Below are positions 261 to 62,510 of a DNA stretch of 64,000 bases, piece after piece. Positions within the stretch are counted from its first letter, which is position 1; each line of letters begins with the position of its first letter. The stretch comes from a virus. A program made the translations under genes and the position numbers. The stretch lies in IMG/VR virus record IMGVR_UViG_3300025276_000023, positions 62,001 through 126,000 of that record. The stretch is one strand, 5' to 3'. The notes under the pieces were generated by a model. The model was not told the origin of the DNA and made no database searches. It saw nothing but the letters and a program-made list of their open reading frames with translations.

Positions 261-292
261 GGAAGGGACTTCGGTCCCTTCCCTTATGTTTG
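261..292. terminator. Bidirectional hairpin terminator, TATG type
   Basis: A 9-bp perfect stem (GGAAGGGAC / GTCCCTTCC) with a TTCG tetraloop lies between convergent genes. The plus-strand tail reads CTTATGTTTG. Read on the minus strand the tail is CTCTATGCTTC, so both strands carry TATG after the stem. Confidence 0.8.
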
Positions 293-892
293 TTATTCTA
301 ACGTATTGCTTTCAAAGAAACGAATGTACTCTTCTAGTTTCGCCACTTTAGTAGTAAGTTCTTGAATAGTTTTGTAAGGATTGATTTCAGCATTAACGTT
401 AATCAATCTTTCCTGCTCTAGCGTGTCATGAATCTCCTGAGTTATGAGCTCAACGACTTCCCCTTCAACAATAAAGCATTCTAATTCTTTCCCCACCAAC
501 TGAGAAGCCAATGTCTTCATCTCATTTAAAACATGTTCAGTACTTAAAGACTTAGGTATAGCGCCTATATCGATACATAGCGTTTCTGTTTTATATTCAA
601 CAATACTTGATTGTACATAGCTAGTAAAATAGTTTACCGGTATATAGATTTCATTACCGTCGCTCTGAATCATCAATGCAATTTGAATGTCTTTCTCGGA
701 AGCTTCGTCATAAACGTCTTGTTCTAAACCAATCTTAGCGTAAACTGATTGTTGTACGTCTATACTGAAACCTAACTCTGATAGTCTACTTACACGAATA
801 CATTCAATGCGAGTAGTTTGTAGGTGTTCGTAGGGAGCTTTAAATCCATAGAAACCTACATCGCCAACTTTAGGTAAATATAAACCCATCAT
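293..892 (-). CDS. Unknown protein with C-terminal coiled coil
   Basis: This 199-residue protein is not recognised. The last ~35 residues have a heptad-like pattern (IQELTTKVAKLEEYIRFFE), suggesting a short coiled coil and an oligomer. No signal peptide or membrane segment is seen. Its start overlaps the stop of the upstream gene as TAATG, so the two are probably translationally coupled and work together. A second ATG follows the first directly and either could be used. A structural role is only a guess from the partner gene. Confidence 0.75.
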   Translation of the reverse strand: MMGLYLPKVGDVGFYGFKAPYEHLQTTRIECIRVSRLSELGFSIDVQQSVYAKIGLEQDVYDEASEKDIQIALMIQSDGNEIYIPVNYFTSYVQSSIVEYKTETLCIDIGAIPKSLSTEHVLNEMKTLASQLVGKELECFIVEGEVVELITQEIHDTLEQERLINVNAEINPYKTIQELTTKVAKLEEYIRFFESNTLE

Positions 893-2619
893 TAGTGAAG
901 TATTCCGTCATTAGGATCGTTTCCACCATCGTTTCTTCGATCAGCAAATGTTCCAGCGAACGTACCATGATTAGAAACGTAGTCACCTAATCTGGCAGTC
1001 ACGACTACCTCATAACCGTTATAAGGAATGCTATACTCGGCGAACATGAAAGCCGCGTCGCTACCCGATGAGAAAGCTGTTTCTACAGCGGTTGGTTCAC
1101 CTATCTGAGTTAAATGAGCGTACCAGTAGATGGGTCCATCAAAAAAGTATGCATCCATATTACCAGTTTCCGGATTGAACTTCACCAATCTTACAACCAG
1201 TGAGTTTGTATCGTACTTATCTGAACCAAATGAACACTCTATCTCCGGCAATCCTATGAATCCATCTCCAGGTCCTGGACCAATAACAGGACCGTCGTCA
1301 TCACCGTCTCCAGGAAATTCAGGAATGGGTGGTTCGATTATTACATTTGAACGGACAGATATTAAGTAATTTACTTTCTCGTAATTAAATACGATGTAAG
1401 TATTATCACCTCGCTCTACTGTACTGAAATCATTTGGTAGATTGACGTATCCATCACCGTCCCAACGTTCTGCGTAATAAAAAGCAGATGTTAACTGCTG
1501 CATGAATCCGCGAGTATAAGGTGATAGGCGATCGTAATAAGCATCTAAGGTAGATACAGAAGCAAACTCTGGCATCTGATCTCTAAAGCGCGTTATGCCG
1601 GTCTGGTTCTTTTCATTACCAATTGCTACAAAGCCAATGGATTTAAATGTGAATGCGCTATGTTCAAGATTATTGTAGACATAGTCTATATCTAAACCGT
1701 GGAACGTACTGAAACCATATTTAAACATTAGCTCCATATCAGCAGTAGGTGAATAAATACCGAAGATAGACTGTAAGTTTTCAACAGATATCTCATTCCA
1801 CATTGGGCTGATGTAGAACTCATTAGGTAGGAACAGTTCAGGTAATATCTTTTCCCATTCAGATCTTGGGTATTCAGAATTGGCCAGTATATGTTCAACT
1901 AAGCTATTTTTAATAAGATCAATGTTCTTACCAGCGTTACCATATATAAGCGCTGTGAACGTTATTTTGTGAGTGACCTCAGGATCATTCTTATCGACCC
2001 AGTCAACTTCGAGCGGGTACTGATGAGTAAAAGGCACTTCATTGCGAACGATATCAATACGATTGAATATATCAGTGAGACTAATATTGTCTAGTGTATT
2101 GAATACATTGGCTCGGGTTTCATGGAGTTTATCTAAATCGTCCAAGGGCATGATGGGGAATAATTCATACTCAGGATATTCTTTATCGAACTCTTGATCA
2201 GAGAACCATAGACTAACTAAGTCTCCATCTGCACTAAAAACTATATAAGTAGGGTACCAAACATCACCCACTTTTTCCATTCTTCCAACTTCTTCAATTT
2301 CTAAATCGGAATATTGAACTTGGAAAAGTTGCTTAAAGTCTGAGTTGTCGCCAGTGTAACTGCCATCTTTCGATGTGTCATAAATCCACTGTGCCATTTC
2401 AAGTATTGCATTTCGCATGCCGAGAGGCAAAGCCATTTGTACATCATTATTTTCAGATTGAAAAGTTAATATCTTCACATCTTTAAATTGTGAGCTTGAA
2501 TAATTACCAATCTCTCTGCTAAAACTTGCAGAGTTAGGCGATAACTCACCGATGGGACTGACCTGCCCAGGAGTATTGTTTATTAAAGGTATTACGTTAA
2601 CAAAAGAATGAACGATCAT
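892..2619 (-). CDS. Unknown, probable virion-associated protein with Gly/Pro/Asp linker
   Basis: I place the start at 2619 (MIVHSFVNVI, 575 aa) because GAGGTGAC sits five bases before that ATG. An upstream ATG at 2673 has no such site and would overlap the divergent gene at 2651. The protein has an N-terminal part of about 440 residues, a low-complexity Pro/Gly/Asp linker around residues 445-470 (including GDGDDDGPVIGPGPGDG), and a beta-rich C-terminal part of about 110 residues that could be an Ig-like or jelly-roll fold. That build resembles appended virion or fibre-type proteins, but I recognise no family. It forms a two-gene unit with the following gene. Confidence 0.7.
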   Translation of the reverse strand: MIVHSFVNVIPLINNTPGQVSPIGELSPNSASFSREIGNYSSSQFKDVKILTFQSENNDVQMALPLGMRNAILEMAQWIYDTSKDGSYTGDNSDFKQLFQVQYSDLEIEEVGRMEKVGDVWYPTYIVFSADGDLVSLWFSDQEFDKEYPEYELFPIMPLDDLDKLHETRANVFNTLDNISLTDIFNRIDIVRNEVPFTHQYPLEVDWVDKNDPEVTHKITFTALIYGNAGKNIDLIKNSLVEHILANSEYPRSEWEKILPELFLPNEFYISPMWNEISVENLQSIFGIYSPTADMELMFKYGFSTFHGLDIDYVYNNLEHSAFTFKSIGFVAIGNEKNQTGITRFRDQMPEFASVSTLDAYYDRLSPYTRGFMQQLTSAFYYAERWDGDGYVNLPNDFSTVERGDNTYIVFNYEKVNYLISVRSNVIIEPPIPEFPGDGDDDGPVIGPGPGDGFIGLPEIECSFGSDKYDTNSLVVRLVKFNPETGNMDAYFFDGPIYWYAHLTQIGEPTAVETAFSSGSDAAFMFAEYSIPYNGYEVVVTARLGDYVSNHGTFAGTFADRRNDGGNDPNDGILH

Positions 2620-2650
2620 AGTCACCTCGTTTGTAGAAAAGGAATAAGTT

Positions 2651-5290: not shown

Positions 5291-5683
5291 ATGACATCTA
5301 GACTGGAACACATGGTCTCAATGTTCTTCATTAGATCGCTTGCAAAACTACTCCCTGACCGAATGAAACGTTTATTGGTCATAGTTAGTCTTTACAATCA
5401 TTTCCTAGAGAGTGAATCAATAACCGAAGAACAGCGCCAGCTAAAACTGACGGAACTTAATGAAGCATTAAAGCTTGCAACAACGAGTTCCAGAAGTCTA
5501 GCGCTTGGTTTATTATTCAGCGAACCTCTTTGGGGCGGAAGAACAAACATCACTATGAATAACTTGAAGCGTGAACGGGTTGATAACTTCCTACCGCACT
5601 TCTTACGTTATGGTAGAGATGTGGATATAGAAGCTGATGTAAGAAATCTAGATAAGTTTCTGTTAACAAAAAGAAATGCATAA
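5291..5683 (+). CDS. Unknown small helical protein
   Basis: The 130-residue, mostly helical protein starts 9 bp after the RNase H stop with a GAGGTAGCTT site, so the two are co-transcribed. It is basic at the N-terminus (RMKRLLVIV) and has no membrane segment or known motif. It closes the plus-strand unit before the hairpin at 5685. A role in replication alongside RNase H would be a guess from position. Confidence 0.7.
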   Translation: MTSRLEHMVSMFFIRSLAKLLPDRMKRLLVIVSLYNHFLESESITEEQRQLKLTELNEALKLATTSSRSLALGLLFSEPLWGGRTNITMNNLKRERVDNFLPHFLRYGRDVDIEADVRNLDKFLLTKRNA

Positions 5684-5684
5684 T

Positions 5685-5716
5685 AAGAAAGGGGTGTTAG
5701 CCCCTTTCTTATGTTT
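5685..5716. terminator. Bidirectional hairpin terminator, TATG type
   Basis: Ten-bp stem AAGAAAGGGG / CCCCTTTCTT with loop TGTTAG lies between convergent genes. The plus tail is ATGTTTT directly after CTT (TTATGTTTT). The minus tail reads ATTATGCATTT. Both strands therefore carry TATG. Confidence 0.8.
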
Positions 5717-6617: not shown

Positions 6618-8135
6618 ATGGGTATTAATTCTGTAATCGAGTCAACTCCACCAATCAAAGCTTTATTCAACATGGGCTGTCTGATGGATATCCCAAACTG
6701 CTCGGGCAGTTACCGCTATGGCAAGTATGGTGAAGCCATATTAAATGGGGGTCTAGCTCATTTCGAAGGTGTAGGTGGTAGACCGAATACGCACAAGTCT
6801 ACGTTCATGCACTTTAGATCACTGCGACTGATAGACCGTTACCCAACTACTGAGGGAAGTAATCTAGATACTGAATACTCTCAAACTCCTGGTCGTTTCA
6901 ATCTATTGCGTAAACACCATCCTCGCCTAGAAGCATTGAGCTTTGACTTCGAAGATGAAGATCAACAAATCCTTACTATCACAGATGGTCGTAAATACCG
7001 TGGTGATGATTACTGGGAAGAAGTTAAGAACTACGCTAAAACAAAGATGAATGATAAAACAGCTATCATGACTCTACCATTTGTAACAGCGAAAGGTCGT
7101 CACTTCAAAGGGCTTAAAGTTGATGTAATGGCAATTGACTCATTATCTCGAATGGGCACTAAGTCATTAGATAAAATCATCGACAACAATGACGTTGGCT
7201 CTAACAGCATGCAAACATTCGGTGCTCGTGACTCAGGCGTTAAAGCACAGATGTTAATCCAGATATCTGATTATGCACTGCGTACTGGTTTAGTATGTCA
7301 ATTAACAGCGCACGTTGACGATGAAGTTAACTTAGAAATGTTTCCTACTTCAACTAAGAAACTAGCGTTCTTGAAAAACGGTCTTAAGTTCAAATACGTA
7401 TCGAATCAGTTTGCGTTCCTACCTAATAACTTATGGTATGTTTATTCAGCTACGCCTTACAACAATGCAACAAGTAAGTACAGTGAATATCCTCGTGATA
7501 AAGACGATACAAACAGTACAGACTTAATGCGTATGTTCATTCAGAATCTACGTGGTAAGTTTGGCTCATCGGGTGCACCGACTGAATTAATCGTTTCTCA
7601 ACGTGAAGGTATCTTACCTACATTGAGTGAGTTCCATCACTGTCGTAAAACTAAGAGCAAACCTACAGAAGCAGGTTTTGGTTTAGTGGGTAACAACACA
7701 ACTGCTGCACTTGCATTAAAGCCAGATGTTAAGTTTACTCGAAATACCATTCGTACTAAGTATGTTGAGCATCCTGAACTGGTACGTGGTTTTGAAATCA
7801 CATCTGAAGTATGTCAATTAAAAGAGTTATGGCATCACCTTCCATTAGAATATAAAATGATTACAATGGAAGAGATCTACGCTAAGTTAGTTGACCTAGG
7901 TTATGATGTTGACTTCTTACTTGGTAAGACTCGTGGCTTCTGGACACATGTTGAATCTGAATCTATGTTCGGACCGTTCTTATCAACATGGGATGTCCTT
8001 CGTATCGTTACAGATAAGTATTATCCGTACTGGTATGACAAAGCAATTAAAGAACATAAACTAGCACCGATTAAAAATCGTAAAGTTGCAATTGAAGCAC
8101 TTAAGCTAGAATGCCCTTGGGTAACTTGGTGTTAA
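6618..8135 (+). CDS. uvsX-like: RecA/UvsX-like recombinase ATPase
   Basis: The 505-residue product has a RecA-fold P-loop at residues 53-62 (GGRPNTHKST) and a Walker B strand at ~168-176 (VDVMAIDSLS). The P-loop is divergent: His replaces the usual Gly before the catalytic Lys, comparable to T4 UvsX where that position also varies. Such proteins form filaments on single-stranded DNA and drive strand exchange in recombination-dependent replication. phiKZ gp152, described as UvsX-like, lies in the matching place. It is followed by a strong hairpin, so it is probably a single-gene unit. A RecA-fold packaging or replication ATPase is a less likely alternative. Confidence 0.75.
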   Translation: MGINSVIESTPPIKALFNMGCLMDIPNCSGSYRYGKYGEAILNGGLAHFEGVGGRPNTHKSTFMHFRSLRLIDRYPTTEGSNLDTEYSQTPGRFNLLRKHHPRLEALSFDFEDEDQQILTITDGRKYRGDDYWEEVKNYAKTKMNDKTAIMTLPFVTAKGRHFKGLKVDVMAIDSLSRMGTKSLDKIIDNNDVGSNSMQTFGARDSGVKAQMLIQISDYALRTGLVCQLTAHVDDEVNLEMFPTSTKKLAFLKNGLKFKYVSNQFAFLPNNLWYVYSATPYNNATSKYSEYPRDKDDTNSTDLMRMFIQNLRGKFGSSGAPTELIVSQREGILPTLSEFHHCRKTKSKPTEAGFGLVGNNTTAALALKPDVKFTRNTIRTKYVEHPELVRGFEITSEVCQLKELWHHLPLEYKMITMEEIYAKLVDLGYDVDFLLGKTRGFWTHVESESMFGPFLSTWDVLRIVTDKYYPYWYDKAIKEHKLAPIKNRKVAIEALKLECPWVTWC

Positions 8136-8149: not shown

Positions 8150-8184
8150 GATATAGGGAGCAATCCCTATATCCTTATGAATAA
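8150..8184 (+). terminator. Hairpin terminator, GCAA loop, TATG type
   Basis: A perfect 10-bp stem GATATAGGGA / TCCCTATATC capped by the stable GCAA tetraloop is followed by CTTATGAAT instead of a U-tract. It separates the RecA-like gene from the SLOG gene. Confidence 0.7.
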
Positions 8185-9943: not shown

Positions 9944-10662
9944 ATATCTTATTAAGTCTCGATGAGCTGCTCGATACTCGCCTAGGGGTACTTAACACAA
10001 TGGATGTTAATTACCCTAAAAAGATGTTAGCTAACGATTGGCAAACACGAATAGGTGACAGTACCATTTTAGAATACTGCGACGTATCTAATGATGAGTA
10101 CAATGAAGCATATGGTAAACGTACCGTTGAAGAGTTAAAGAATTCTGTCATTACAAACATCCCTTCTTATGTAGCAAATCAACTAGCAAGTGATATCGTT
10201 AACTTTCCAGAGATGGAAGAGCTAGGCGCTACGCCAGAGATATTCTTAAACGTCTGGCCTTATAAACTCAATAAAGAAGAGACGGATACGTTTGTACTTA
10301 TACTTAGACGAATCTTTACGTTTGCTGAGAAAGTGACAGTCATTCAAGTGTCTCCTAAATACATAACGCCTAGATGGTTGAAAGATAAAGAGATTTATTA
10401 CTTCTTTAACTATGATGGTATCAAGTGGATGAACATTCATTCAGAAGCGTTATTGGAATTCCCTATAACCAGAATGAAGTTTTATATGCCTGCTACCGAA
10501 CAGATAAACTCTGAACCAATGACACAGGAAATGCACAACGAATATAAAGATGTTGATCGCTTTAATCTCGTTGCTGTAGCATGGGCCATGTATATAACCA
10601 TTCAATATATTCCAGTTAAGGTATTCTCAATCATTGATAGACCTACAGATAAAGCAAAATAG
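9940..10662 (+). CDS. Unknown protein, C-terminus related to preceding gene product
   Basis: The 240-residue, acidic protein begins in a 4-bp overlap with the preceding gene and has a similar C-terminal segment (AWAMYITIQYIPVKVFSI). The rest is mixed alpha/beta without a recognised motif. It ends two bases before a U-tract terminator at 10664. It is most likely a partner of the 9410 product; the shared C-terminal element may be the surface by which the two interact. Confidence 0.75.
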   Translation: MNILLSLDELLDTRLGVLNTMDVNYPKKMLANDWQTRIGDSTILEYCDVSNDEYNEAYGKRTVEELKNSVITNIPSYVANQLASDIVNFPEMEELGATPEIFLNVWPYKLNKEETDTFVLILRRIFTFAEKVTVIQVSPKYITPRWLKDKEIYYFFNYDGIKWMNIHSEALLEFPITRMKFYMPATEQINSEPMTQEMHNEYKDVDRFNLVAVAWAMYITIQYIPVKVFSIIDRPTDKAK

Positions 10663-10663
10663 A

Positions 10664-10690
10664 AGAGAGGCAACTGCCTCTCTTTTTCTA
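10664..10690. terminator. U-tract hairpin terminator between convergent genes
   Basis: Stem AGAGAGGC / GCCTCTCT with loop AACT is followed by TTTTCTATTATTTTTT. This is the classical intrinsic type. On the minus strand the tail is TCTATTTTG. Confidence 0.8.
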
Positions 10691-12249: not shown

Positions 12250-12257
12250 TTTACTAG

Positions 12258-12295
12258 CGTGAAGGACTCTGGTCCTTCACGTATGCATTTTATGA
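12258..12295 (+). terminator. Hairpin terminator, TATG type
   Basis: Ten-bp stem CGTGAAGGAC / GTCCTTCACG with loop TCTG, followed by TATGCATTTTATG. Confidence 0.7.
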
Positions 12296-14532: not shown

Positions 14533-14553
14533 GGGACCTTCGGGTCCCTTTTA
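14533..14553 (+). terminator. Hairpin terminator with TTCG loop and U-tract
   Basis: GGGACC-TTCG-GGTCCC followed by TTTTATTC, 20 bp before the AAAGGAG site of the 14575 gene. It can serve as terminator of the upstream unit or as an attenuator for the downstream one. Confidence 0.65.
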
Positions 14554-16632: not shown

Positions 16633-16660
16633 AGGAAGGCGGCTGCCTTCCTTTATGTTT
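16633..16660 (+). terminator. Hairpin terminator, TATG type
   Basis: AGGAAGGC-GGCT-GCCTTCCT followed by TTATGTTTG. On the minus strand the tail is AGTATGTATG. Confidence 0.78.
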
Positions 16661-16682
16661 GAAATGGAAAGGTTTTGACATC

Positions 16683-16702
16683 TATATAGTAAATATGAGA
16701 TA
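16683..16702 (+). promoter_or_regulatory. Putative early promoter motif, copy 2
   Basis: TATATAGT, five bases, then TGAGATA, 30 bp before the 16733 start and just after a terminator. The flank matches copy 4 at 41325 (ATCTATATAGTAAA in both). Confidence 0.6.
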
Positions 16703-16732
16703 ACTAACTTAAACAATTATAGGAAACGAATC

Positions 16733-17140
16733 ATGAATTCAATTAAACTTAAAATAGCAGCCGGCCTTGCAGCAGTATCAGTAGTATCTTTAGGCGCGGC
16801 TTATTTTCTAAATAAGTCAGATCAGAAAAAAGAAAAGTCAACTAAGCGTAACAGCGATGTTTCTTTCTTTGACGGTTATACCCTTTACTTTACCAACGAT
16901 GCAATCGAAGGTATCGTTACAGTAAAGGACGGTGAGTTCGAAACAAACGTCACTGCTATAAAAGAAGTAAAAGGCAATACAGGAATGAGCACAGTAAACT
17001 TAGGCTTAATGTTTTTAAAGGTAGCGGCCGATGCTGCTAACATAAAAGCTGCTAAATCATCGCTGTCAAGAGCAGATATATTTAGAGTAATAATAGCTGG
17101 TGACAATGATGTCTTCTCTATTGAAAACACAGTAGCTTAA
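16733..17140 (+). CDS. Small membrane-anchored protein
   Basis: The 135-residue product starts with MNSIKLKIAAGLAAVSVVSL, a single N-terminal membrane anchor or signal-anchor, then a Lys-rich linker (KSDQKKEKSTKRN) and a compact domain. Its N-terminus resembles the 42-residue peptide at 41376 (MNELKIRIGVVVGTT), and the two genes share almost the same promoter motif. AGGAAACGAATC precedes the ATG. Possible roles are host membrane takeover or exclusion of other phages. It is not recognised. Confidence 0.68.
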   Translation: MNSIKLKIAAGLAAVSVVSLGAAYFLNKSDQKKEKSTKRNSDVSFFDGYTLYFTNDAIEGIVTVKDGEFETNVTAIKEVKGNTGMSTVNLGLMFLKVAADAANIKAAKSSLSRADIFRVIIAGDNDVFSIENTVA

Positions 17141-17169
17141 TTAACCCCCCATTATCAAAGGAAACAACC

Positions 17170-17535
17170 ATGAAGATTTCAGACGCACTATGTATAGCAG
17201 CGGTAGCAGTGACAGCAGTAGCTTTAGCATCTGCAAGTGTAATAGAAGTTAGACGCGAGCCTCTACCTAGACGTAGAATGAATCGTGGTTCTACTCACCA
17301 GATAAGAGGAAGTCGAGTTCGTGCTACTGTAATATTTAACAGTGATCGCACATTTAATGTAGATGTTAGAGACGTAGGCGATTTCTACGGTCGCTATAGT
17401 CTAGCTCAGATGTTACGTAATCGTATCGAACAAAACCTTAGATACGATCATTCAATGTCTAAAAGATTGGCAGTCAGTAAAGCTTGTAATGAGGTTTCTG
17501 ACTTTACCGGTTTACCATTGTACAATATCAGTTAG
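17170..17535 (+). CDS. Small membrane or exported protein with basic domain
   Basis: Residues 5-24 (DALCIAAVAVTAVALASASV) are an N-terminal membrane helix or cleavable signal (ASA-like end). The rest is Arg-rich (EPLPRRRMNRGSTHQIRGSR) followed by a folded domain with a beta strand and helices. It is in one unit with the 16733 gene, 29 bp apart, and ends before the terminator at 17551. Unknown function. Confidence 0.65.
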   Translation: MKISDALCIAAVAVTAVALASASVIEVRREPLPRRRMNRGSTHQIRGSRVRATVIFNSDRTFNVDVRDVGDFYGRYSLAQMLRNRIEQNLRYDHSMSKRLAVSKACNEVSDFTGLPLYNIS

Positions 17536-17550
17536 GTATTGTACAATAAA

Positions 17551-17580
17551 AAGAAGCTTCCGTAGCTTCTTTTTTTTATT
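17551..17580 (+). terminator. U-tract hairpin terminator
   Basis: AAGAAGCT-TCCGT-AGCTTCTT followed by TTTTTTATT, 15 bp after the stop of the 17170 gene. Confidence 0.8.
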
Positions 17581-18217: not shown

Positions 18218-18222
18218 CATAA

Positions 18223-18262
18223 ACAGCTCCCATTATGGGAGCTGTATGTTTTTTCTTTTTTT
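18223..18262. terminator. Bidirectional hairpin terminator
   Basis: Ten-bp stem ACAGCTCCCA / TGGGAGCTGT with loop TTA between convergent genes. The plus tail is ATGTTTTTTC; on the minus strand the stem is followed by TTATGTTAG, so TATG is present on both sides. Confidence 0.85.
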
Positions 18263-20307: not shown

Positions 20308-20345
20308 AGACACTCCATTAATAAAAAAAATCTTCATTACATAAA

Positions 20346-20379
20346 ATGCGCAGCTAGGATTAACTAGCTGCGCATTATG
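20346..20379. terminator. Hairpin between the two large minus-strand tail genes
   Basis: Twelve-bp stem ATGCGCAGCTAG / CTAGCTGCGCAT with loop GATTAA. On the minus strand it is followed by TTTATGTAATG, on the plus strand by TATGTTTAT. It would separate or attenuate the two minus-strand genes. Confidence 0.65.
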
Positions 20380-20380
20380 T

Positions 20381-23300
20381 TTATATACTCCGTCTCATTG
20401 ATATCTTTCCAGTATCGAGTGGGGCGGATGTTTCAGGTTTCTTAAAAGATTCCTGCTGGCCCGTAGAGGCCGATTGATTACCAGTAGGATTCACTGTTGC
20501 TTGAGGGGCTGTATTATTAACCTTACCGTTTTGCTTTATAAGGTCTTTTAGTAGAGCAACACTTTGTTTGTGATAGCTATTACTCTCAGCTAGTAGTGAG
20601 TTGGCACGTTTAAGCTCTGTAACGGCTTGTAACGAACTCTGGCTACTGTCAGCAGCGTATTGGGTTTGTGCTTTCGCACGTTGTTCAGCGGCTCTCTTAG
20701 ACGCTCTCTCGACTAACTCTTTCTGTTCTTTAGTATCGACAACATCAGACTTTTCATCTTGATATTTAGACTTGTTAACAACATTAGCAGTATCGGCCAC
20801 GTAAGAACTAGAAGACGATTTCTTAACAGCAGGAGTTGTGGAAGCTTTCACTTCATCTAGTCTGCTAGATAATCCAGAAAAGAATTCCTTCTTAGTCATC
20901 TTCGCAGAGAGTCTATCTTTATCAGCTGTGGTTTTAGGCTTAATGAATTCAGATACATTGGCATCGTCATCTGCTTGTATTAAGCGGATTGTTTCCTCAG
21001 TACCGTACATCATAGCCGATAGATTTTCTTGAGAGGTTGGTTCTCTTCCTAAGATAGAACGCATTCTAGCAATTGACACCTTAAGGAACTCAGCCACCGC
21101 AATGGTTGCATGTTGAGGATTCTTAATGTCTGGCTTATCGATACTGTATCGTTCAGCATGCTTATCCATTAGTTTCCTAAAGGTAGCAGCATCCATTAGA
21201 TACATACCCGACCTAGCACCTACTCGTTTGTTAGGATTGAAGTTAGTAGCTAGTTTAGCAAGTCCTAGTATTGGATCAGGCTCAATGCCTACTAACATGG
21301 CTACTGACATTACCATCTTGCCATATTCGCCCATTGTAGCACGAAGCGGTTTATAGATAGCACTTGCATCAGCATCACCTACAGATGAAATCTTAGCATT
21401 GATTTCTTTCTCAGAGATACTAGCAACTGGATTAACTTCTGTAGGAGCACCAGAACTAGGAACGTAGCTAGTAGTCTGACCCGAATTTCCACGAGCCTTC
21501 ATCTTATCTATTTTCTTCTGCACCCTACGTAAAGTTGGATTGTCACTGTTACGTCTACGCTCGGCTGCCTGTTTTGCAAACTCCTCACCGGTCATCGGTT
21601 TATCAGATGTGCCTTGTATAGGAGTGACACTCGCTGGTTTATCTGGATCAGCAACCTTAGCTACTTCTCCCCGAGCTTTCATTGCATCGGCTTGTTTCTG
21701 TGCTTTGCGTACAGCAGGGTTATCGCTATTGCGTCGTCGTTCGGCAGCCTGATCTGCAAACTGAGCAGCTGTTGATTGAGTAGCTTTAGGATTAGGAACA
21801 TCCTTCATTGTTTTAAGTTGTTCATCGGTTGGATTGAGTGCTGGATCTTTAGGATCTAAAGTGGCTTGCTCATTATCTTTCATCTCAATGACTGAACGCA
21901 TATGTTGATCATATTTACGTTGCAGTGAAGGGTTGTCAAAATGTTTACGGACAATGTCGGTACCTTTAAAGTATTCAACGCCGTCTTTAACATCAAACTT
22001 CTCTTCAGCTGGACTATCGTTAGCAGCCTTCGCCACCGTTCCTTGCATCATTAACATGTTAGCTTTATTGTCGTTAGCTTTACGTGCATCTTTCATTACA
22101 GCTTGACCGTACTTAGCACTGTAACCGTCATCTGGTAGATCGTAGGTCTTCTGAGGGTTCTTAGAAGGCTGTCCATTACGCATGTTAATCATACGTTTCT
22201 CAGCAGACTTATCTCTAGGCGTGTGTTTCTCAACAACTAAAGCAAGTGCTTCTTCGATAGGTTCCATTCGACCATCCATCACTATATCAGAATCCCCAAA
22301 CGGAGAAGACGTGACTGTATATGGACTAGGTTCAGTTCTTATCATTGAAGCTTTTGCAAATTTAATCTTATCTTCTTCTTTAAGATCTTTATCTACTGTC
22401 ATTAGGTTAGATGAATTAGCCATTGTTTTCAATAGATACATGTTCTTCAAAAAGACTGGTTTAAAACGTTCACTGAACCACTTGTTAAACATCTTAACCT
22501 TCTGTTTATTTTTAATATCAAACTCAAAGATTTCAGGTATTTGCTCAAACGGTACTTTACCAGATATAGATGCAGACTCTCCAGAGATAGAAACATTCTT
22601 AGAAAGGATTTGCTCAAACTTACCTATGGTTTGAATTAAATCATAGTCTAAGTCTGGTACACCGTACTGAGCCATCCGCAGTTCAGTTAAAGGATCTAAC
22701 AGTTCTGAGAAGTAGCTATAAGTAAAGTAACTAACAGCCCCAACCGCAGCAACCGTCAAGACAACAGGAGAGAACACAACTGCGGCTACTGTACCAGCAG
22801 CCGCAGCAGTTGCTGCCGCAGCAGTAGCAACACCACTTGCAATGGCAGGAGCAGCCGCCACAGCCGCCGTAGCCACATAAGGTATTGCTCTAGCCCCCAT
22901 TGCCAAAGCTCTAGCAGTTAAAGACTTCTTACCACCACCTAGGAACATATTAGCGACACTGGAACCGGTTAAGAAATTAAGTACAGTTGTTAACACTGAC
23001 CCTATTCCCATTATACCACCAACCACTTTACTTAACATGCCAAACGTACCGCTCATTAGTCCTAATACTTTCTTGGAGAATGACCCTCCTTTACGATTAG
23101 CCTTAGCCGCCTTATCTTCCCTTGCCTCTTTACGCTTAGCTTCTTTCTTAGCTTTACGTTCTTTCATGATATTGACAAAAGAACCTACTCGGTCTTTCAT
23201 GTCACTGGCTTCGTTCTTAAGTTTATCTTTGAAGCTAGGACGTTTCTTGCTCTTGTCCTTTTCTTCTTTGTTTCTAAACTTCTTGAACTTACCAAATAGC

Positions 23301-26300
23301 GTATCCATGTAGCCATTCATTTTAGCAGCAAAGCCTTCTTTAGCTCCTTTGGCTTTATCTTTAAGAGCGTCTTTCTTTTGCTTCAACTTCTCTTTAAGAT
23401 CTTTACCTCTAGAACTTGCTTTGTCTTTAAGCTCAGATGCTTTATCTTTCGCTTTATTGTATTTCTCATCGACACCAGAACGTTCACGGTAATCTTTTGC
23501 TTTGTCTTTGGCTTTATCTATCTTGCCATCAACATCGTATTTATTACGTAACTCATCTGCTTTAGATTTGATCTTATCTTTAGCAGTCTTACCACTAAAG
23601 GCATTGTACTTGTCTTTAACTTTATCCAGTAAACCAGAACCCATTGAAGTAGCTGAACTGAAAGCTGCTTTAGCACCGTTAACGATACCACCAGACGCTT
23701 GAGCCAATTCTTCTTCTTTAACATCGAGTCCTTTATAGGCAAAGTATTTTAATAAGAGTGCATAGATACGTTTAGTTATACTTCCCGTACCAATTCCAAA
23801 TGAACGTTTCTCACCGTTGCCGTCAGTGCCGAATCCAGGTATCTTAGATGTTAACCATCCTAAACTTCCTTTGATTGCATCGGCTGCTGTACCAGCGCCC
23901 TTCTTAACGAGGTCAAAGGCTTTCTTGCCACCATTTAATACTAAGCCAGCACCTTTACCTATAAGTCCAATGGCGCTCGCTATAACGCTCTTAGGCAACC
24001 CTATCTTTTTACCGTCAATAGTAACAAGGTTCTTTAATTCCTCAGCATTAATTACAATGCTCTTACCTTCGTATATAGGACCGGTTAAATGTTTCTTGTG
24101 AGTGACCGTAACCCCAGCAGAGTTAACGTACGCTCCATTATTCATTTTAACAACTCTAAGACGAGGTTCACTTTCCCCTTTCACGTAAACGTCTGGTAGT
24201 TTAGTGAAGAAGTCTTTAGCTTTGTTATAGGCTTTATCTATCCCTAGCATCTTAAATGGATTGACTAAGTTAAATGGTTTTTTGATTAACCCTAAAAGGA
24301 AATCTTTACCTGCTTTAAAGTTTATCTTTTTACCAGCGAAACTATAAAGGCCATCTCTCCATTGTTCAGGACTGATAGCGTAGTTACCAGCTAAGTCTTT
24401 TATCGGTCCCTTTATTTGAGACATCTTGGTAATTATCTTACCCGTAATAGCATCTTTATATTCACCAGCTTCTAATTTAGCTTTAGTGATTAAAGGATTG
24501 ATCTTATTGGTAGCTGAGTAGAGATCTATATTTTTAAGACCTAGAACAGTATCTTTAATAGCCCCGCCAGCTCTACGTGCTAGACCAGCTGCAAAGGTTA
24601 ATGGTTTAAGTGTATTGCCAAATACTTTCTTACCGATGTCCCATGGCTTCTTAATGATGGTGTTAAACGCACCTTTACCAAGACCTTTAAGTTTACCGTA
24701 TTTACCTTTAAGGTAATTCTTAGCTCTGGTTCGTTTACCTTCTTTAGGCGTACCGTCATTGTCACCGTAGGCAAACATATCGGGTAGATCAATTAAGAGT
24801 TCTTTTATCTCACTTAACAGATCAACTTGCTTAGACGCATGTTCTTGGCTTGAGAACTTGCCTTCAATCATTTCTAACTGATCATAGTCGATGGCTAATT
24901 CACCGCCTGTTCTACCTTGTAAAGATTCAATCAATTGATCAATACTTTGAATTAGTTCACCTGCTTCAATGGTAGTGGAAATAGAATCACCAGCGCCACT
25001 TGCGCTATCTGGACCGACTGGAGGATTCCAAGGTTTACCTGGTTCTTTATCAGACGGGTCGTAAGGCTTTTCTGCTGCTGCTTTATCTTTACCGTGCTGA
25101 CGATAGCGTTCAAAGATATACTCTTCATTGACATGATCATCACCATCTCGGTCAACAGTAACACCACTGCGTCTGAGAGCTTCTCTATTAGCTGTGTTAG
25201 CGTAAAGATTAGCTGTCTCATAAGTGTTAGGCATTGCTTCACGCAAACGTCTTAGATCACGATTGGCTTCTACTTGAGCAAAAGAGCCTTTAACATTTTC
25301 ATCGCCTATTGTTCCATCCATCTCAAGTTCGAGTTTGGCATGAACAGCATCGGCAAATCGATCGTACTCTTCCATTGATAGTTTAGACTTATCTAGATAG
25401 TCACCATCAATTAGTTTCTTAGTGTTGAAGTCAGTATCAGTACGAGCAAACCGAAGAAACATCTCTTCTATTTTATCTGCTATATCATCAACTGAACCAT
25501 CTGTAACAACAGACAGTAGATTTTTATTGATGTCTTTCAATGCGTCGAGTTCAGTGTCTCTAACTGCATCGCCTTCTATTCTAGCTGAGAGGTCAGTTGT
25601 CTGTACAAACTTATTACCAGCATGATCAAAAGTAACTGAGTCTTCTTCCGTACCGCTTACGCTATGCCATATTTTAGATAACCAACCAGGTATTACTTCA
25701 ATGATTGATTTACGAGTAAGGTTGTCAAAGTCAGCATGGTCGGTTGAGTTAGCTATTTGATCATAACCTACTCTAGACTCACGTCTATTCCTAAGGGCTT
25801 CTAAAGCAGTCTCTTGCAACATACTAGAAATGTTACCAGTATACGTCTTAGACTCTAAATGCTCACGTAGCATCTTGTCGTAGTTCTCACTACCGTTTAG
25901 AAGCTTATTGCCAAGCGTTGCAATCTTTTTATTCTTAGCCATATGAGGAGCTAAGAACTTACCCATCTTCTCACCTAACCAGCGAGTTAATGATTCAGAA
26001 CCCATCTGAGCACCGAGTTCAGTTTTACTGATACCCATCTCTTCAAGGTCAACGCCCTCTAACATATCGCCTGCAAATGAAGCAGTGGCTACAGCGTCTT
26101 TAAACTCAGCTACCTTCTCTTTAACTCGTTTACCTAGAATGTCCCCAAATGTATTGAGGAAGTCTTTAGCCATTGGAGCGAACTTATCTTGTGCTTTACC
26201 GATAAGTTTCTCTTTGGTTAACTGCATTGCTAGTTCACTGTTTTGTATTTTAACAGCTTCTGGCAAACCAGTGTTCTTAACCAAAGAGCGGAAGTGAGTA

Positions 26301-32907: not shown

Positions 32908-32947
32908 AATTGCCTAGGACTTAGCTGTCCTAGGCAATTATATGATT
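32908..32947 (+). terminator. Hairpin terminator, TATG type
   Basis: Thirteen-bp stem AATTGCCTAGGAC / GTCCTAGGCAATT with loop TTAGCT, followed by ATATGATTT. The left flank CATAAAC gives GTTTATG on the minus strand. Confidence 0.75.
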
Positions 32948-36107: not shown

Positions 36108-36140
36108 AAGAGAGGGTTTTAAAACCCTCTCTTTTATGTA
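36108..36140 (+). terminator. Hairpin terminator, TATG type
   Basis: AAGAGAGGGTTTT / AAAACCCTCTCTT, an almost loop-free palindrome whose centre will form the loop, followed by TTATGTAAAA. Confidence 0.72.
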
Positions 36141-40956: not shown

Positions 40957-40986
40957 GGGTCTTAGCAATGAGACCTTTTCTTTCTA
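40957..40986 (+). terminator. U-tract hairpin terminator
   Basis: GGTCT-TAGCAATG-AGACC followed by TTTTCTTTCT, 14 bp after the stop of the 40602 gene. Confidence 0.65.
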
Positions 40987-41262: not shown

Positions 41263-41300
41263 AGAGAGGACTTCGGTCCTCTCTCTATGTTTGTTTTTTG
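41263..41300 (+). terminator. Hairpin terminator, TTCG loop, TATG plus U-tract
   Basis: AGAGAGGAC-TTCG-GTCCTCTCT followed by CTATGTTTGTTTTTTG, combining both tail types. The left flank gives ATTTATG on the minus strand. Confidence 0.82.
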
Positions 41301-41324
41301 TTTAAATGCAATTAATTTGAGATC

Positions 41325-41344
41325 TATATAGTAAAAGGGAGATA
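41325..41344 (+). promoter_or_regulatory. Putative early promoter motif, copy 4
   Basis: TATATAGT, five bases, then GGAGATA, 31 bp before the 41376 start. The flanking ATCTATATAGTAAA is shared with copy 2 at 16683. Confidence 0.6.
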
Positions 41345-41375
41345 GATATCATAAACAATATATTAAGGAATTACA

Positions 41376-41504
41376 ATGAACGAATTAAAGATTAGAATAG
41401 GTGTAGTAGTTGGTACAACAGCCGCAGTTTTCATAGGCTTTACTGTAGTGGATAAAATCGTAGCTCGTAAGAAAGCTAAACTAACTAAACAGGAGAATAA
41501 ATAA
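41376..41504 (+). CDS. 42-residue single-helix membrane peptide
   Basis: The peptide begins MNELKIRIGVVVGTTAAVFI, one membrane helix, and ends in a Lys-rich tail (ARKKAKLTKQENK). TTAAGGAATTACA precedes the ATG, and its stop overlaps the next start (TAATG). N-terminus, promoter motif and tail all resemble the 16733 product. A small membrane effector is plausible. Confidence 0.66.
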   Translation: MNELKIRIGVVVGTTAAVFIGFTVVDKIVARKKAKLTKQENK

Positions 41505-41707
41505 TGTCATATTTTAAAACAGGCGTAGCACTCGGCGCAGTACTAGGAACAGCACTTACAGGTCTTTACTATAAAGCAAGTGTATCAGACATGCATGTTG
41601 AAATAGCTATCGATAAACGTAGAAAGGAATACAAGAAAGCATTTGAACAACGTCAAGCAGCAGCGGCTAAAAAGAGAGAACAGTGGGAACGTGACTTGAA
41701 TATATAG
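41504..41707 (+). CDS. Small membrane-anchored helical protein
   Basis: The 67-residue product has a Gly/Ala/Leu-rich membrane helix (FKTGVALGAVLGTALTGLYY, 4-23), then a highly charged long helix (IDKRRKEYKKAFEQRQAAAA) predicted to be cytoplasmic or periplasmic coiled coil. AGGAGAATAA inside the upstream gene serves as ribosome site. It is translated with the 41376 peptide and may form a complex with it. Confidence 0.68.
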   Translation: MSYFKTGVALGAVLGTALTGLYYKASVSDMHVEIAIDKRRKEYKKAFEQRQAAAAKKREQWERDLNI

Positions 41708-41720: not shown

Positions 41721-41757
41721 AGGGAGCGAGAGCTCCCTGCCCTCTTATCTTTTTTTG
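41721..41757 (+). terminator. U-tract hairpin terminator
   Basis: AGGGAGC-GAGA-GCTCCCT, then GCCCTCTTATCTTTTTTTG. Confidence 0.68.
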
Positions 41758-42263: not shown

Positions 42264-42304
42264 TTTTACGTCAGGTCATTATAGTTTGAGGAATTTATTT
42301 CTCC

Positions 42305-42326
42305 CCATTGTTTGTCAAAACAATGG
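42305..42326 (+). other. Leader hairpin in the 121-bp gap before the 42385 gene
   Basis: CCATTGTTT-GTCA-AAACAATGG, a perfect 9-bp stem followed by a purine-rich stretch (AGAGGGAGGAGCGAAGCG) and not by U. It may stabilise or regulate the downstream message. No coding sequence is seen in 42264-42384. Confidence 0.45.
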
Positions 42327-42384
42327 TAGAGGGAGGAGCGAAGCGACAACAACAGAACTAAGTTAGATACTAGGAACTTAATGA

Positions 42385-44598: not shown

Positions 44599-44621
44599 CA
44601 ATTAAGAAACAATAGACAATG

Positions 44622-44660
44622 CTATGCAGGTGGAAACACCTGCATAGTTTTTATTTTTTC
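44622..44660 (+). terminator. Very strong GAAA-loop terminator with U-tract
   Basis: CTATGCAGGTG-GAAA-CACCTGCATAG followed by TTTTTATTTTTTC. Confidence 0.88.
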
Positions 44661-45677: not shown

Positions 45678-45686
45678 ATTGCATAG

Positions 45687-45735
45687 ATAGAGAGGAGCAT
45701 TGAGCTCCTCTCTATTGTGTTTTCTTTTTTTTTTG
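45687..45735. terminator. Strong hairpin terminator between convergent units
   Basis: Twelve-bp stem ATAGAGAGGAGC / GCTCCTCTCTAT, five-base loop, plus tail TGTGTTTTC then T10. On the minus strand the stem is followed by CTATGCAATTT. Confidence 0.85.
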
Positions 45736-45736: not shown

Positions 45737-46603
45737 TTAAGAAGTAACTTGCTCTGTAGAGATTAAGTTTAATGCTTCTTTGTAACCTGTTTGAGTGATA
45801 GCTTTGATGTTTGCATCAACGTCACCAATAAACAATTCACGGCTAGATGGATTAGCACCAACTAGGTTTAACTCGTCAAGTAATTTCTGAGCTAATTTAT
45901 TTACGCTATAACCAACGATTGTCGTAGCAGTAAATGGAATCTGGTATTCAAGCACTTGCTGACCAGTGAAGATATTACGCTCACCTTCAACCAAACCACC
46001 TGTCATAGGTTGTTGATTAAAACAAAGGAATGCGTGTACTACTTCACGGTGAGTAGGATCTGGTTCGATATGAAGCGTTACCATTGATGTATTAGCAGAT
46101 ACTAAACGATACTGTTCAACACCCGGTAATGTAGATACTAATGGAATACCTGTATCTGGATCTTGGATACCGTAACGAATCCAGAATTCGAAGAACTTAT
46201 TAACCGGCTTAAACATTCTTTCAACGAATGTATAGTTAGGTTCAGTACGCTCACGCTTAGACATTGACACGTCTTGCCAGAACTCACCAGAACGGTTAGC
46301 TTCAACCTGTGCATATTCAACATTGATTGTAGAACGGAAGCCAGTGGCTTGTTTACAGTTAAGTTCAATAAGGTCTTTTAATGTACCGTGAAAGATTTCT
46401 GGATTTTCTAATAAATCAAAGAAACCTGGAGATGATAAAAGAAGGTTGATCAAAGGCTGTTTAATGTAAGAAGCCCAGTTCAAACGTTTTTTGAAGTCAG
46501 GTGTAAAACCGTAAGGACCGCCGTTTAATTGTAGACCTGGTGTATTACCGTTAACTTCATAACCAGTACCAGCCTGGTTAAATAGAGCTGAGATGTTTTC
46601 CAT
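45737..46603 (-). CDS. Tail tube protein (phiKZ gp30-like)
   Basis: The 288-residue protein lies directly downstream of the tail sheath gene on the same strand, as gp30 follows gp29 in phiKZ and related giant phages. Size is right for a phiKZ-type tube protein. Contents are beta-rich with a helix, e.g. NVEYAQVEANRSGEFWQDVS and QQVLEYQIPFTATTIVGYSV. GGGAGAAACAG precedes the start and codon use is highly biased, as expected for a protein needed in hundreds of copies. Identification is by position and composition. Confidence 0.78.
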   Translation of the reverse strand: MENISALFNQAGTGYEVNGNTPGLQLNGGPYGFTPDFKKRLNWASYIKQPLINLLLSSPGFFDLLENPEIFHGTLKDLIELNCKQATGFRSTINVEYAQVEANRSGEFWQDVSMSKRERTEPNYTFVERMFKPVNKFFEFWIRYGIQDPDTGIPLVSTLPGVEQYRLVSANTSMVTLHIEPDPTHREVVHAFLCFNQQPMTGGLVEGERNIFTGQQVLEYQIPFTATTIVGYSVNKLAQKLLDELNLVGANPSSRELFIGDVDANIKAITQTGYKEALNLISTEQVTS

Positions 46604-52544: not shown

Positions 52545-54671
52545 ATGGCCGATAAGATTCCTAAAACGAATCCCGAGCTCTTTAATAAAGTGATAATGCG
52601 TCATGAATTATACACAGGTCCAGATGGGACTGGTGAGATAGTAGGTGAGGTAGATGATTTTATTTTAGACTATAGTACGGGTTTCTTTAGAGTTGTCGAC
52701 GTAATAGATAACATAGCTTCCATACGTCCATGGACTCCCCCTGAAACTAGCACTATTCGTGAAGATCTTGGTTTGATTGGTTTATTAAATGCTAACTCTA
52801 ATGAATTTTTATTCTTAGACACGACAGTGACTCCACATCGCGTAAGTATTCCTAGCTCCGTCACGTTTGCAGGTAGTCAAAAGAAATATGCTAAACTATT
52901 CTTCGGTAGTGATCTGACTGAAGATAATGGCATTGTCATAAGTACGCATTATGAGAACGGTCGTTACGTTAGTGAAAATATTCCATTAGAACGTGTAATT
53001 GTAAGTGACTTTACTAACGAAGCACTTAAGACGATGAAAGAGTCGTACGTCAATACTAAACTTCCAGACAATGAGCTTGTAACCTTAGTGGTGTATAGCG
53101 AAACTGGAATGCCTACTGATATACGAGAGTTCCGCGTCTATAATACAAACTACGTTAAGTCTTTAAATGTTCGTGAAAGCTATATCACATCCATTGAATT
53201 GAACTCTAATTTCTTTAGTGAAAATGATTCATCGTTGCTTGAAATACCAATGAATGTTTCTCTACGTGATTTAGACCTTACTGCTACTATTCGTTATCGC
53301 AATGAGCAAACTCGAACCGTGGCTATTGATGGCAATACAATGCGTATCGATGGTTTAGATAACTATATCAGCAATACCGACGGCAAACAGGCAAACATCA
53401 ACTTAGTTTATTCTTTGAGCGATGGTGAATATACATTAAATGCCGGTGGTCAGAATAAACGTATCGTTAATCAGAAATATAAAATCACCACTGTCGAGAC
53501 AGAAGGTAACTATACTGTTAAGTTATACGTAGTTCCTAACTGGGTAAGTGACGATGTAGGTTATGTATTAGAATATTACCTTTACGATCTAGATCGCGGT
53601 GATTATTTCTACGCAACTCCTTTTGTTGAGATGGGCAGTGGTTCACAACCATTCAAATCTAAACAGTACGGTACTGAGCAATGGTTGACAGTCGTAATCG
53701 ATGTATCTAAAGCTAACCGTAATTCAAAGCCATACAGACACGTACAGAAGTTTGCTGTTAGCTTGTTAAGCAATGGTCGTTCAGATCAAACACCTTGGTT
53801 AATTCGTTATGAGGACGACGGTAAATTGGAATACGGCTATAACCTTGAAGCAGTTGCAACCTATCAAACGATTAATGATTGGAAGATTGATATTTCTAAT
53901 AACCTAGAAAATACAACTAACTTCCTAACTGCGTGTTTTTACGCATCAAAACCATTAGTCAATACAGCCATTGAAAAGAACACTCCCGCTCCAACTCACT
54001 TCATTATGAACATCAATGGACGTGAGACTGAACACGTATTATCTGAATGGAACAATACGCTTAACAGTACTGTAGGCGGTACAGAAGGTAAATGTATTCT
54101 TTTACATTGGATTCGTAAGATTGGCGGACAAGTACTTCACCTAGGTATGTCACCCCTAATAACGCGTACTGAAATAAAATCATTGGCAGTCAGTTCTTCT
54201 AATGTTTCATTTCAAAAACCTGAAACGCTAGCCAATAACTTTTTAGAGCTACAGTCAGGTAACAGTACGGTCAATGAGTTTGATAAGAACACGTCTATTA
54301 AATTCAGCGCTGACGGTACGTACGAATTGTTATGGACGTCTGACGTAGATACCCGTGGTGAAGTCATTCCTAATACTGGCTTTAAAGGCGAGTGGATAAA
54401 TGGAACGCGTGACGATAACAATCGTTATCAGGTATCTGTAGCTATCATATCTCGTTGGGAGGCAGGAGACGGAATCAACTTCATCGACCTTAATCTCAAT
54501 GGCGCCGATTACGAAAACGGTAAAATAGTGGATATTGCAGGAGATGTAATCTTCTCAATGGAAAGTGATTTTGCACCATCGGGCTCTGAGATTTCTATTT
54601 CAGTGGCGATACGTAACAAAGACGTTCAAGCTTCTCGCGTCATTGATACATTAACGATAACTAAAAACTAA
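52545..54671 (+). CDS. Large beta-rich virion protein (fibre/baseplate candidate)
   Basis: The 708-residue product is dominated by beta strands in short segments (QTRTVAIDGNTMRIDGLDNY, NYTVKLYVVPNWVSDDVGYV) with few helices, the make-up of tail fibre or receptor-binding parts. There is no signal peptide. It ends in a compact domain (GSEISISVAIRNKDVQASRV). Translation couples to the EF-hand gene. It ends at a TATG-type hairpin. Not recognised as a family. Confidence 0.62.
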   Translation: MADKIPKTNPELFNKVIMRHELYTGPDGTGEIVGEVDDFILDYSTGFFRVVDVIDNIASIRPWTPPETSTIREDLGLIGLLNANSNEFLFLDTTVTPHRVSIPSSVTFAGSQKKYAKLFFGSDLTEDNGIVISTHYENGRYVSENIPLERVIVSDFTNEALKTMKESYVNTKLPDNELVTLVVYSETGMPTDIREFRVYNTNYVKSLNVRESYITSIELNSNFFSENDSSLLEIPMNVSLRDLDLTATIRYRNEQTRTVAIDGNTMRIDGLDNYISNTDGKQANINLVYSLSDGEYTLNAGGQNKRIVNQKYKITTVETEGNYTVKLYVVPNWVSDDVGYVLEYYLYDLDRGDYFYATPFVEMGSGSQPFKSKQYGTEQWLTVVIDVSKANRNSKPYRHVQKFAVSLLSNGRSDQTPWLIRYEDDGKLEYGYNLEAVATYQTINDWKIDISNNLENTTNFLTACFYASKPLVNTAIEKNTPAPTHFIMNINGRETEHVLSEWNNTLNSTVGGTEGKCILLHWIRKIGGQVLHLGMSPLITRTEIKSLAVSSSNVSFQKPETLANNFLELQSGNSTVNEFDKNTSIKFSADGTYELLWTSDVDTRGEVIPNTGFKGEWINGTRDDNNRYQVSVAIISRWEAGDGINFIDLNLNGADYENGKIVDIAGDVIFSMESDFAPSGSEISISVAIRNKDVQASRVIDTLTITKN

Positions 54672-54674: not shown

Positions 54675-54710
54675 AATGAGGAGGGAATTAGTCCCTCCTC
54701 ATTATGTTCG
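54675..54710 (+). terminator. Hairpin terminator, TATG type
   Basis: Ten-bp stem TGAGGAGGGA / TCCCTCCTCA with loop ATTAG, followed by TTATGTTCG. Confidence 0.78.
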
Positions 54711-58421: not shown

Positions 58422-58430
58422 CGTGCATAA

Positions 58431-58459
58431 GGGAAGGGACTTAGTCCCTTCCTCTATGT
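58431..58459. terminator. Hairpin terminator between convergent units, TATG type
   Basis: GGAAGGGAC-TTA-GTCCCTTCC followed by TCTATGTTT on the plus strand; the minus-strand tail is CCTTATGCAC. Confidence 0.8.
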
Positions 58460-61289: not shown

Positions 61290-61324
61290 AGGGGATTGTC
61301 ACAGTTAAAAGGTTGGATTCATAC

Positions 61325-61354
61325 TATCAGACATAAATGAGGGCTGGGCCCTCA
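61325..61354 (-). terminator. Hairpin terminator upstream of terminase, minus strand
   Basis: TGAGGGC-TGG-GCCCTCA; on the minus strand the stem is followed by TTTATGTCTG. It sits between the 61362 gene and the terminase start. Confidence 0.7.
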
Positions 61355-61361
61355 CCTATAA

Positions 61362-62468
61362 TTATCCTGCCTTATTTAAAGCAGATTGTGAACGCATGCA
61401 GTATTGAATTATTGCATTTGTTACTTTTAGATTGTGTCCCAGCAATGGAATGGCTGGAGAATAAATCCATCGATTTAAAGAATGAAGTACTTTAGATATC
61501 TTACGAAGATATACTTTACGTTCATCATTCTGATCTTCTCTACCAAGTGCATTATAGGCATTTCTATATTGCTTTATTTTATTACGGTATTGAGTGACAC
61601 GTTTATAGTAGCGTATATGGAACTGTATCGCAACGTTAAGCACTTTAATACATTCTTCCAGTAAGACTGTCTGTTCTCGTCCGGGTACCGCTAGGACCTT
61701 GTGAGTGCTCGTATCGTAATCGCCAGAAGAAGTTAAAGAACCTCTTGTAGTTATAATAGAGTCGAGTGCAGAGGTTAACTGGTAGTTGGTTGTTTTCAAA
61801 TCTGATTCAGTAACTGGTTCAGCTTTGTATTCTATTTCTACAGTGCCTAATAAAGGACCCGTACTATAGACATGAGGCGTATTGGTCGCTTTAAGGTGTG
61901 GGCTAGATAAATACTTCTTACGTAGCTGATATACATCACTAGCAATGCCTTGGGTTAAGAAAACAACTTCTGGGGCGTTGAGTGAATTAAAGCGATTAAG
62001 TAACTGATCTGTTTTAGGAAATACTTTGTCGATTAAACGAACGCTGTATTCCATGTTATCAATTGCTTCTGTAAAAAATACATCTCTTAACTTCTTAATA
62101 CCTTTTAAGATATCAGACGAGTTAGGAACATCGCCGGTAGCTGTTAAGTATTGAGCATCGGGTATTTCAATGATTGCTTTACTAGAACCAGATGGCAGAT
62201 CAGGTATTCTAGCAAGTAACTTTCGAGCAGTGATTATTCTGTTCTCTGCTTGGTTTCTTCCAGATGTCATTACCGTTAAGAATCTGTCAAACGAGCGATA
62301 GATTAAATCAAGTAGCTTTTTAGCCACATCTTTGATTATATCTATAGCACCTTCTTGGGAAACATTGATTCCTTCAAGCATTGTAGGACGACCGTTAAGA
62401 CGCATTAGAATGATGCAGGTATCCATTTCCTGATGGAGTAGATCTAACTGTTGTATTTGAGAATCCAT
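61362..62468 (-). CDS. Probable inner-head protein with S-x-E propeptide site
   Basis: The 368-residue product has a possible processing site SQE at 37-39 followed by an amphipathic helix that ends in basic and aromatic residues (GAIDIIKDVAKKLLDLIYRS). The same pattern follows S-x-E in the proteins at 5721 and 62521, so a common propeptide layout is likely. The rest is helical with Arg/Lys-rich parts (RKKYLSSPHLKATN). GGAGTTAAA precedes the start. It sits between the terminase and the 62521 gene, consistent with head function. Confidence 0.62.
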   Translation of the reverse strand: MDSQIQQLDLLHQEMDTCIILMRLNGRPTMLEGINVSQEGAIDIIKDVAKKLLDLIYRSFDRFLTVMTSGRNQAENRIITARKLLARIPDLPSGSSKAIIEIPDAQYLTATGDVPNSSDILKGIKKLRDVFFTEAIDNMEYSVRLIDKVFPKTDQLLNRFNSLNAPEVVFLTQGIASDVYQLRKKYLSSPHLKATNTPHVYSTGPLLGTVEIEYKAEPVTESDLKTTNYQLTSALDSIITTRGSLTSSGDYDTSTHKVLAVPGREQTVLLEECIKVLNVAIQFHIRYYKRVTQYRNKIKQYRNAYNALGREDQNDERKVYLRKISKVLHSLNRWIYSPAIPLLGHNLKVTNAIIQYCMRSQSALNKAG

Positions 62469-62477
62469 TTTAACTCC

Positions 62478-62510
62478 ATAAGTAGGGGATTCGAAAATCC
62501 CCTACAGTTA
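62478..62510 (-). terminator. Hairpin between inner-head genes, minus strand
   Basis: GTAGGGGAT / ATCCCCTAC with loop TCGAAA; minus-strand tail TTATGGAG, where GGAG is also the ribosome site of the next gene. Confidence 0.6.

Follow-up and report, generated by a model that had tools for sequence, protein, structure and literature searches.

A hairpin followed by TATG as a candidate transcription terminator in phiKZ-like jumbo phages

The multisubunit RNA polymerases (RNAPs) of the nucleus-forming jumbo phages have known initiation motifs, and their termination is essentially unstudied in the literature searched; reviews on these polymerases focus on initiation and mention termination in passing only. 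Late promoters of phage phiKZ, used by its non-virion RNAP (nvRNAP), consist of TATG with the G as +1; all four bases are required, and TATG by itself is insufficient for initiation (PMC4666361). For phage AR9, RNA sequencing (RNA-seq) saw termination at predicted terminators (PMC5312081). Considered here is a family of gene-end hairpins followed by TATG in a 64,000-nucleotide stretch ("the window"), bases 62001-126000 of a 129,102-base IMG/VR virus contig that is, from its encoded proteins, a phiKZ-like jumbo phage fragment. The TATG hairpins are probably transcription terminators for the phage's own multisubunit RNAP or RNAPs, in which a TTATG element would replace the U-tract.

Hairpins were found mechanically, retained if they lay outside open reading frames (ORFs) and near the 3' end of one, whose direction set the strand on which they were read; TATG was scored at -5 to +5 of the stem end, and expected counts were taken from the intergenic TATG rate. 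Over the contig (129 kb) TATG stands at the stem end in 25 of 46 hairpin/direction pairs against 3.4 expected (nominal P 6e-17, such values being optimistic because convergent hairpins enter once per direction); the count itself is conservative, since stems that run through TATG, e.g. at 252-291, are partly missed. Within the first 9 nucleotides (nt) past the stem 12 TATG were observed; when the 40-nt 3' flanks were shuffled 500 times with dinucleotides preserved, the mean was 1.9 and the highest count 8. Chance occurrence of TATG after stems is thereby excluded for the family. Intergenic copies of TATGTTT in this contig are directly 3' of a hairpin in 13 of 14 cases.

The terminator family proposed in the preliminary description of this sequence is conserved across many phiKZ-like phages, as seen when other phages were run through the same hairpin pipeline. 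TATG at stem ends, with the expected number in brackets, was found in 47/114 (8.4) for phiKZ, 51/89 (4.7) for PhiPA3, 42/100 (6.0) for 201phi2-1, 57/97 (5.8) for RAY, 47/80 (6.3) for Proteus phage 10, 29/84 (4.7) for OBP and 13/42 (2.4) for Goslar; FLC6 has TATG in 7/16 (60 kb only), and EL gives a weak signal (11/67). No excess was detected in AR9 (7/89), pTD1, Miami, T4 or the divergent IMG/VR relative G002, and PCH45 is marginal (6/72 vs 2.5 expected, P 0.04); all six have T-rich or TATT flanks in place of TATG. The plain T-run terminators of PCH45 (loci L079-L089) occur despite its encoding homologues of the phiKZ nvRNAP subunits, including gp68. In polymerase trees, whose deep branches lack resolution, the TATG phages are not grouped as a single clade, and supported branches require two or more changes; use of TATG by a single polymerase clade was rejected by this test. 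The pattern fits an old, widespread trait that would have been replaced several times, PCH45, pTD1 and Miami having substituted T-rich or TATT types. An additional IMG/VR contig (G001) has an RNAP subunit 100% identical to that of the present phage and was not counted as independent evidence.

The sites have the stable G+C-rich hairpin of intrinsic terminators, at transcription unit 3' ends and outside coding sequence. In place of a U-tract directly after the stem there is TTTATGCCG in RAY and Proteus phage 10 and the partly U-rich TTATGTTT here; because the hairpin is present and the U-tract is not, the sites are terminator-like with a different 3' element. Aligned on TATG, they read TTATG(Y)YG in phiKZ, 201phi2-1, RAY, Proteus phage 10 and Goslar and TTATGTTT in this phage and OBP, extending to TTATGTTT(G), and the position of TATG has a strong peak 1-4 nt beyond the G-C core of the stem. 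The T-richness of the consensus in this phage and OBP, and the coexistence of plain T-run hairpins, could mean that these are ordinary intrinsic terminators, with TTATGTTT an interrupted U-tract in which A and G at two positions are tolerated drift and no specific element exists. This is unlikely, given that TATG ranks first among post-stem tetramers in this contig and near the top in the other TATG phages, that T4, AR9 and Miami show no excess, and that the extended element TTATGCCG of RAY and Proteus phage 10 is conserved yet U-poor, its intergenic copies being directly 3' of a hairpin in 30/34 and 25/27 cases respectively.

TATG is most frequent at convergent gene ends (24/28 in phiKZ, 27/32 in PhiPA3, 28/34 in both RAY and Proteus phage 10), usually on both strands. 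There CATA and TATG are opposed and able to pair, and a palindrome is a classic protein-binding layout, such that CATA...TATG might be no 3' element at all but the outermost base pairs of the stem, or else a palindromic site for DNA binding. At co-directional sites of most of the TATG phages, however, the transcribed strand has TATG predominantly 3' of the stem (3'-only vs 5'-only: 24 vs 3 in RAY, 14 vs 3 in Proteus phage 10, 10 vs 2 in this contig), an asymmetry that therefore argues for a strand-specific 3' element and not merely a longer stem. A pure stem extension is rejected for these three; it keeps its standing for phiKZ and 201phi2-1, whose co-directional sites show no 3' asymmetry, and taken over all the phages the stem or palindrome explanation appears improbable.

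The position, strand specificity and conservation of the element, and the near-exclusive tie of its extended motif to gene-end hairpins, are established at the level of sequence. If the TATG hairpins are terminators as proposed, a G+C-rich RNA hairpin would form at the 3' end of the transcription unit, with the conserved DNA/RNA element TTATG following 0-3 nt on. Once 8-9 nt past the stem had been transcribed, the element would give a weak, pause-prone RNA-DNA hybrid, the hairpin would fold and the transcript would be released; i.e. the element would act as a polymerase-specific pause and as a weak-hybrid segment that enables release by the hairpin. At convergent gene ends one hairpin with TATG on both strands would stop transcription from either side. 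A second conserved step after TATG is a pyrimidine-G, present at 40-74% of sites in the larger genomes as compared with ~5-10% per flank position. It is found at +5/+6 in the phiKZ group, RAY, Proteus phage 10 and Goslar and at +6/+7 in this phage and OBP, that is ~7-9 nt past the stem, the distance at which RNA is released by ordinary intrinsic terminators. The 3' end would most likely be just before the conserved G (TATGYC/G or TATGTTT/G), 7-9 nt beyond the stem. Of the two polymerases, the non-virion (late) one is the most likely to act at these sites, given the preference for TATG of late but not early-led units in phiKZ; no part of the explanation is weaker than this assignment.

The latter evidence comes from phiKZ units classed by annotation and by the early promoter motif, for which upstream sequences yielded TATATTAC. 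TATG ends 24 of 35 phiKZ units with structural (late) genes vs 5 of 27 early-led units (Fisher P 1e-4), and at co-directional sites only, 9 of 21 late vs 1 of 20 early-led (P 0.009). In the present phage TATG was seen in 11 of 15 units with structural homologues vs none of 4 early-like units, the latter count resting on few units and on an early-promoter motif guessed from repeats (core ATCTATATAGTA). The proposal that two terminator types match two phage polymerases is thus supported in one well-annotated phage and suggestive in this one, and it is not general, as the split is not seen in RAY (tandem sites, 4/11 vs 4/10) or Proteus phage 10 (3/10 vs 7/11).

This missing split weighs against the terminator explanation, as do, together with the optimistic nominal P values, several other points. 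Termination is read from the anatomy of the sites, and half of the contig hairpins are without TATG, which is therefore not essential for every terminator. Co-directional hairpins of phiKZ and 201phi2-1 often have TATT or TATA (many with TTATTTCG-like or TATA coding-strand flanks), and at these upstream CATA, the motif as read from the other strand, is about as common as downstream TATG. This pattern may reflect the stopping of antisense transcription. The co-directional gene ends of these two phages also have a second recurrent post-stem flank, TTTATTTCG / TTATTCCG, with CATA upstream of the stem, on the opposite strand; this flank is possibly an early-type terminator.

That the hairpin and TATG constitute an RNA-processing or 3'-end protection signal and not a site of polymerase release has little probability, although phiKZ does interfere with RNase E, and the 3' untranslated region of PHIKZ298 gives rise to a ~100-nt RNA whose proposed end is at a hairpin (PMC8545117). 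A hairpin and then TTATATTC were found at that locus. Polymerase release accounts better for the two-strand TATG of convergent ends and for the difference between early and late units in phiKZ.

Least credible is that the post-stem TATG is an nvRNAP late promoter with its G as +1, one transcript ending and the next starting there, as had been suggested for some sites: the four bases needed by phiKZ late promoters are present, on the correct strand at co-directional sites, but placement upstream of and co-directional with a gene is not what is found, TATG being commonest at convergent ends, where a promoter would yield antisense RNA into the facing gene; the extended motif is nearly restricted to hairpin 3' flanks; TATG alone does not suffice for initiation; and the phiKZ promoter P119L, placed at ~117.6 kb from a published oligonucleotide (PMC7618050) and the only characterised phiKZ late promoter whose sequence was placed, has its TATG in A+T-rich DNA without a preceding hairpin. 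The promoter reading was rejected on the convergent enrichment, the hairpin-only extended motif and the hairpin-free P119L, the first and last of which therefore argue against a general dual role. A stronger connection, itself doubtful, would be that the nvRNAP active centre reads TATG for both starting, when it is free, and stopping, when elongation reaches it behind a hairpin, by a sequence-specific pause that sets off release; this would parallel sigma-dependent promoter-like pausing and differ from it in acting as a terminator.

Within the window, all 14 hairpins first listed have TATG at the stem end on the strand claimed for it, beginning 0-2 bases past the stem or overlapping its last base pairs. 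The four said to carry TATG on both strands do so: these are the bidirectional terminator hairpins at 252-291 (between convergent genes; TATG 285-288 on the plus and 255-258 on the minus strand), 5679-5713 (5710-5713 plus, 5679-5682 minus), 18218-18249 (between convergent genes; 18245-18248 plus, 18218-18221 minus) and 58425-58459 (58455-58458 plus, 58426-58429 minus), the last sharing 94% identity over 49 base pairs (bp) with another terminator of the contig. The same holds for the hairpin of the minus-strand tail-fibre gene 20381-27013, at 20340-20380 (TATG 20340-20343 minus, also 20376-20379 plus); both flanking genes are on the minus strand, which makes the TATG of that strand the relevant copy.

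The plus-strand terminator hairpins are that at 8150-8173 with CTTATG (8150-8179; TATG 8176-8179), 3' of the UvsX-like recombinase gene 6618-8135; 12257-12285 (TATG 12282-12285); 16633-16652 with TTATGTTT (16633-16657; TATG 16654-16657), just 5' of an early-like promoter repeat at 16648-16716; 32908-32944 with ATATG (TATG 32941-32944), 3' of the RNAP subunit gene 28682-32896; 36108-36138 with TTATG (TATG 36135-36138), 3' of the head maturation protease gene 35304-36098; 41263-41289 with CTATGTTTG (TATG 41286-41289), followed by an early-like promoter repeat at 41291-41389; and 54675-54706 (TATG 54703-54706), 3' of the structural gene 52545-54671. On the minus strand, the hairpin 61338-61354 with TTTATG (61332-61354; TATG 61332-61335) is 3' of the gene 61362-62468, and 62482-62505 with TTATG (62477-62505; TATG 62477-62480) is 3' of the gene 62521-63921.

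A convergent hairpin at 45682-45716 (site 45686), absent from the preliminary description, unites both terminator types: TATG (45682-45685, minus strand) serves the side of the structural gene 45737-46603, and a T-rich flank on the plus strand that of a small unknown gene. The separate group described as having a U-tract is largely correct. It includes the convergent hairpin at 10661-10690 (without TATG), the site at 14533, the plus-strand hairpin 17548-17578 at the end of the early-like unit 16733-17535, and 44621-44660 (plus strand, without TATG). The hairpin at 41721-41755 (plus strand, without TATG), at the end of the early-like unit 41504-41707, has its T-run ~12 nt from the stem, and that at 40957 has TTTT only.

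The early-promoter-like repeat, of 65-100 bp with core ATCTATATAGTA..GAGATA, occurs in four copies, each 5' of small genes: the two above and two at window-relative -17995 to -17896 and -32844 to -32777. Early transcription by the virion RNAP of this phage likely starts from this repeat, two of whose copies are directly 3' of TATG terminators. An exact 86-bp intergenic duplication (window 42280-42365 and window-relative -13785 to -13700, 56 kb apart in the contig) folds to a long hairpin of -19.5 kcal/mol.

The window encodes, by homology, the multisubunit virion RNAP subunits like phiKZ gp180 (27046-28719, plus strand) and gp178 (28682-32896, plus strand); the homologues of phiKZ gp178, gp180 and gp149 have E values of 7e-200, 1e-80 and 2e-30 respectively. 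Of the non-virion subunits (gp55, gp68, gp71/73, gp74 and gp123), gp123 is the only one with a match in this 129-kb fragment, a partial homologue (E 3e-16) at the edge of the contig, the non-virion polymerase genes being mostly beyond the fragment's limits. Other encoded homologues are tail sheath, tail fibre, terminase, head maturation protease and further structural proteins. The closest named relatives of the gp180-like protein are those of Proteus phage 10 and Erwinia RAY-type phages (~40% identity); no close DNA relatives were found by megablast against the phage collection.

No description of a TATG or TTATG terminator was found in the open-access literature searched, which excluded the Ceyssens et al. 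2014 phiKZ RNA-seq and the phiKZ differential RNA-seq papers, a prior mention being possible in the former. A conserved stop element that shares the four bases of the late promoter could be tested specifically and cheaply in vitro, as purified phiKZ nvRNAP already exists. Operon maps would also be improved, as U-tract-based predictors should overlook many TATG sites, and TTATG hairpins at convergent ends would mark unit borders in phages without RNA data.

With the terminators of AR9 and PCH45 the TATG family shares gene-end hairpins in phages with two multisubunit RNAPs, and it differs from their T-rich flanks with little or no TATG excess. With the phiKZ late promoters it shares the tetranucleotide, in phages that encode the same enzyme family; the terminator TATG, however, follows a hairpin at a gene 3' end and often faces a convergent gene, unlike P119L. 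The elemental pause of bacterial RNAP has Y-1 G+1 with G-10. The TATG sites have Y-1 G+1 at 7-9 nt past the stem (TATGYC/G) and, in the phiKZ group, a G at the would-be -10 position (39/47), which RAY, Proteus phage 10 and this phage lack; they differ further in that the element, with its conserved TAT, sits in a hairpin terminator. With the bacterial intrinsic (Rho-independent) terminators the family shares a G+C-rich gene-3'-end hairpin, often bidirectional between convergent genes, and a conserved 3' segment of 8-9 nt; where the bacterial terminators have a U run in that segment, the TATG sites have TTATG(YYG) or TTATGTTT, and the likely enzyme is a phage multisubunit RNAP.

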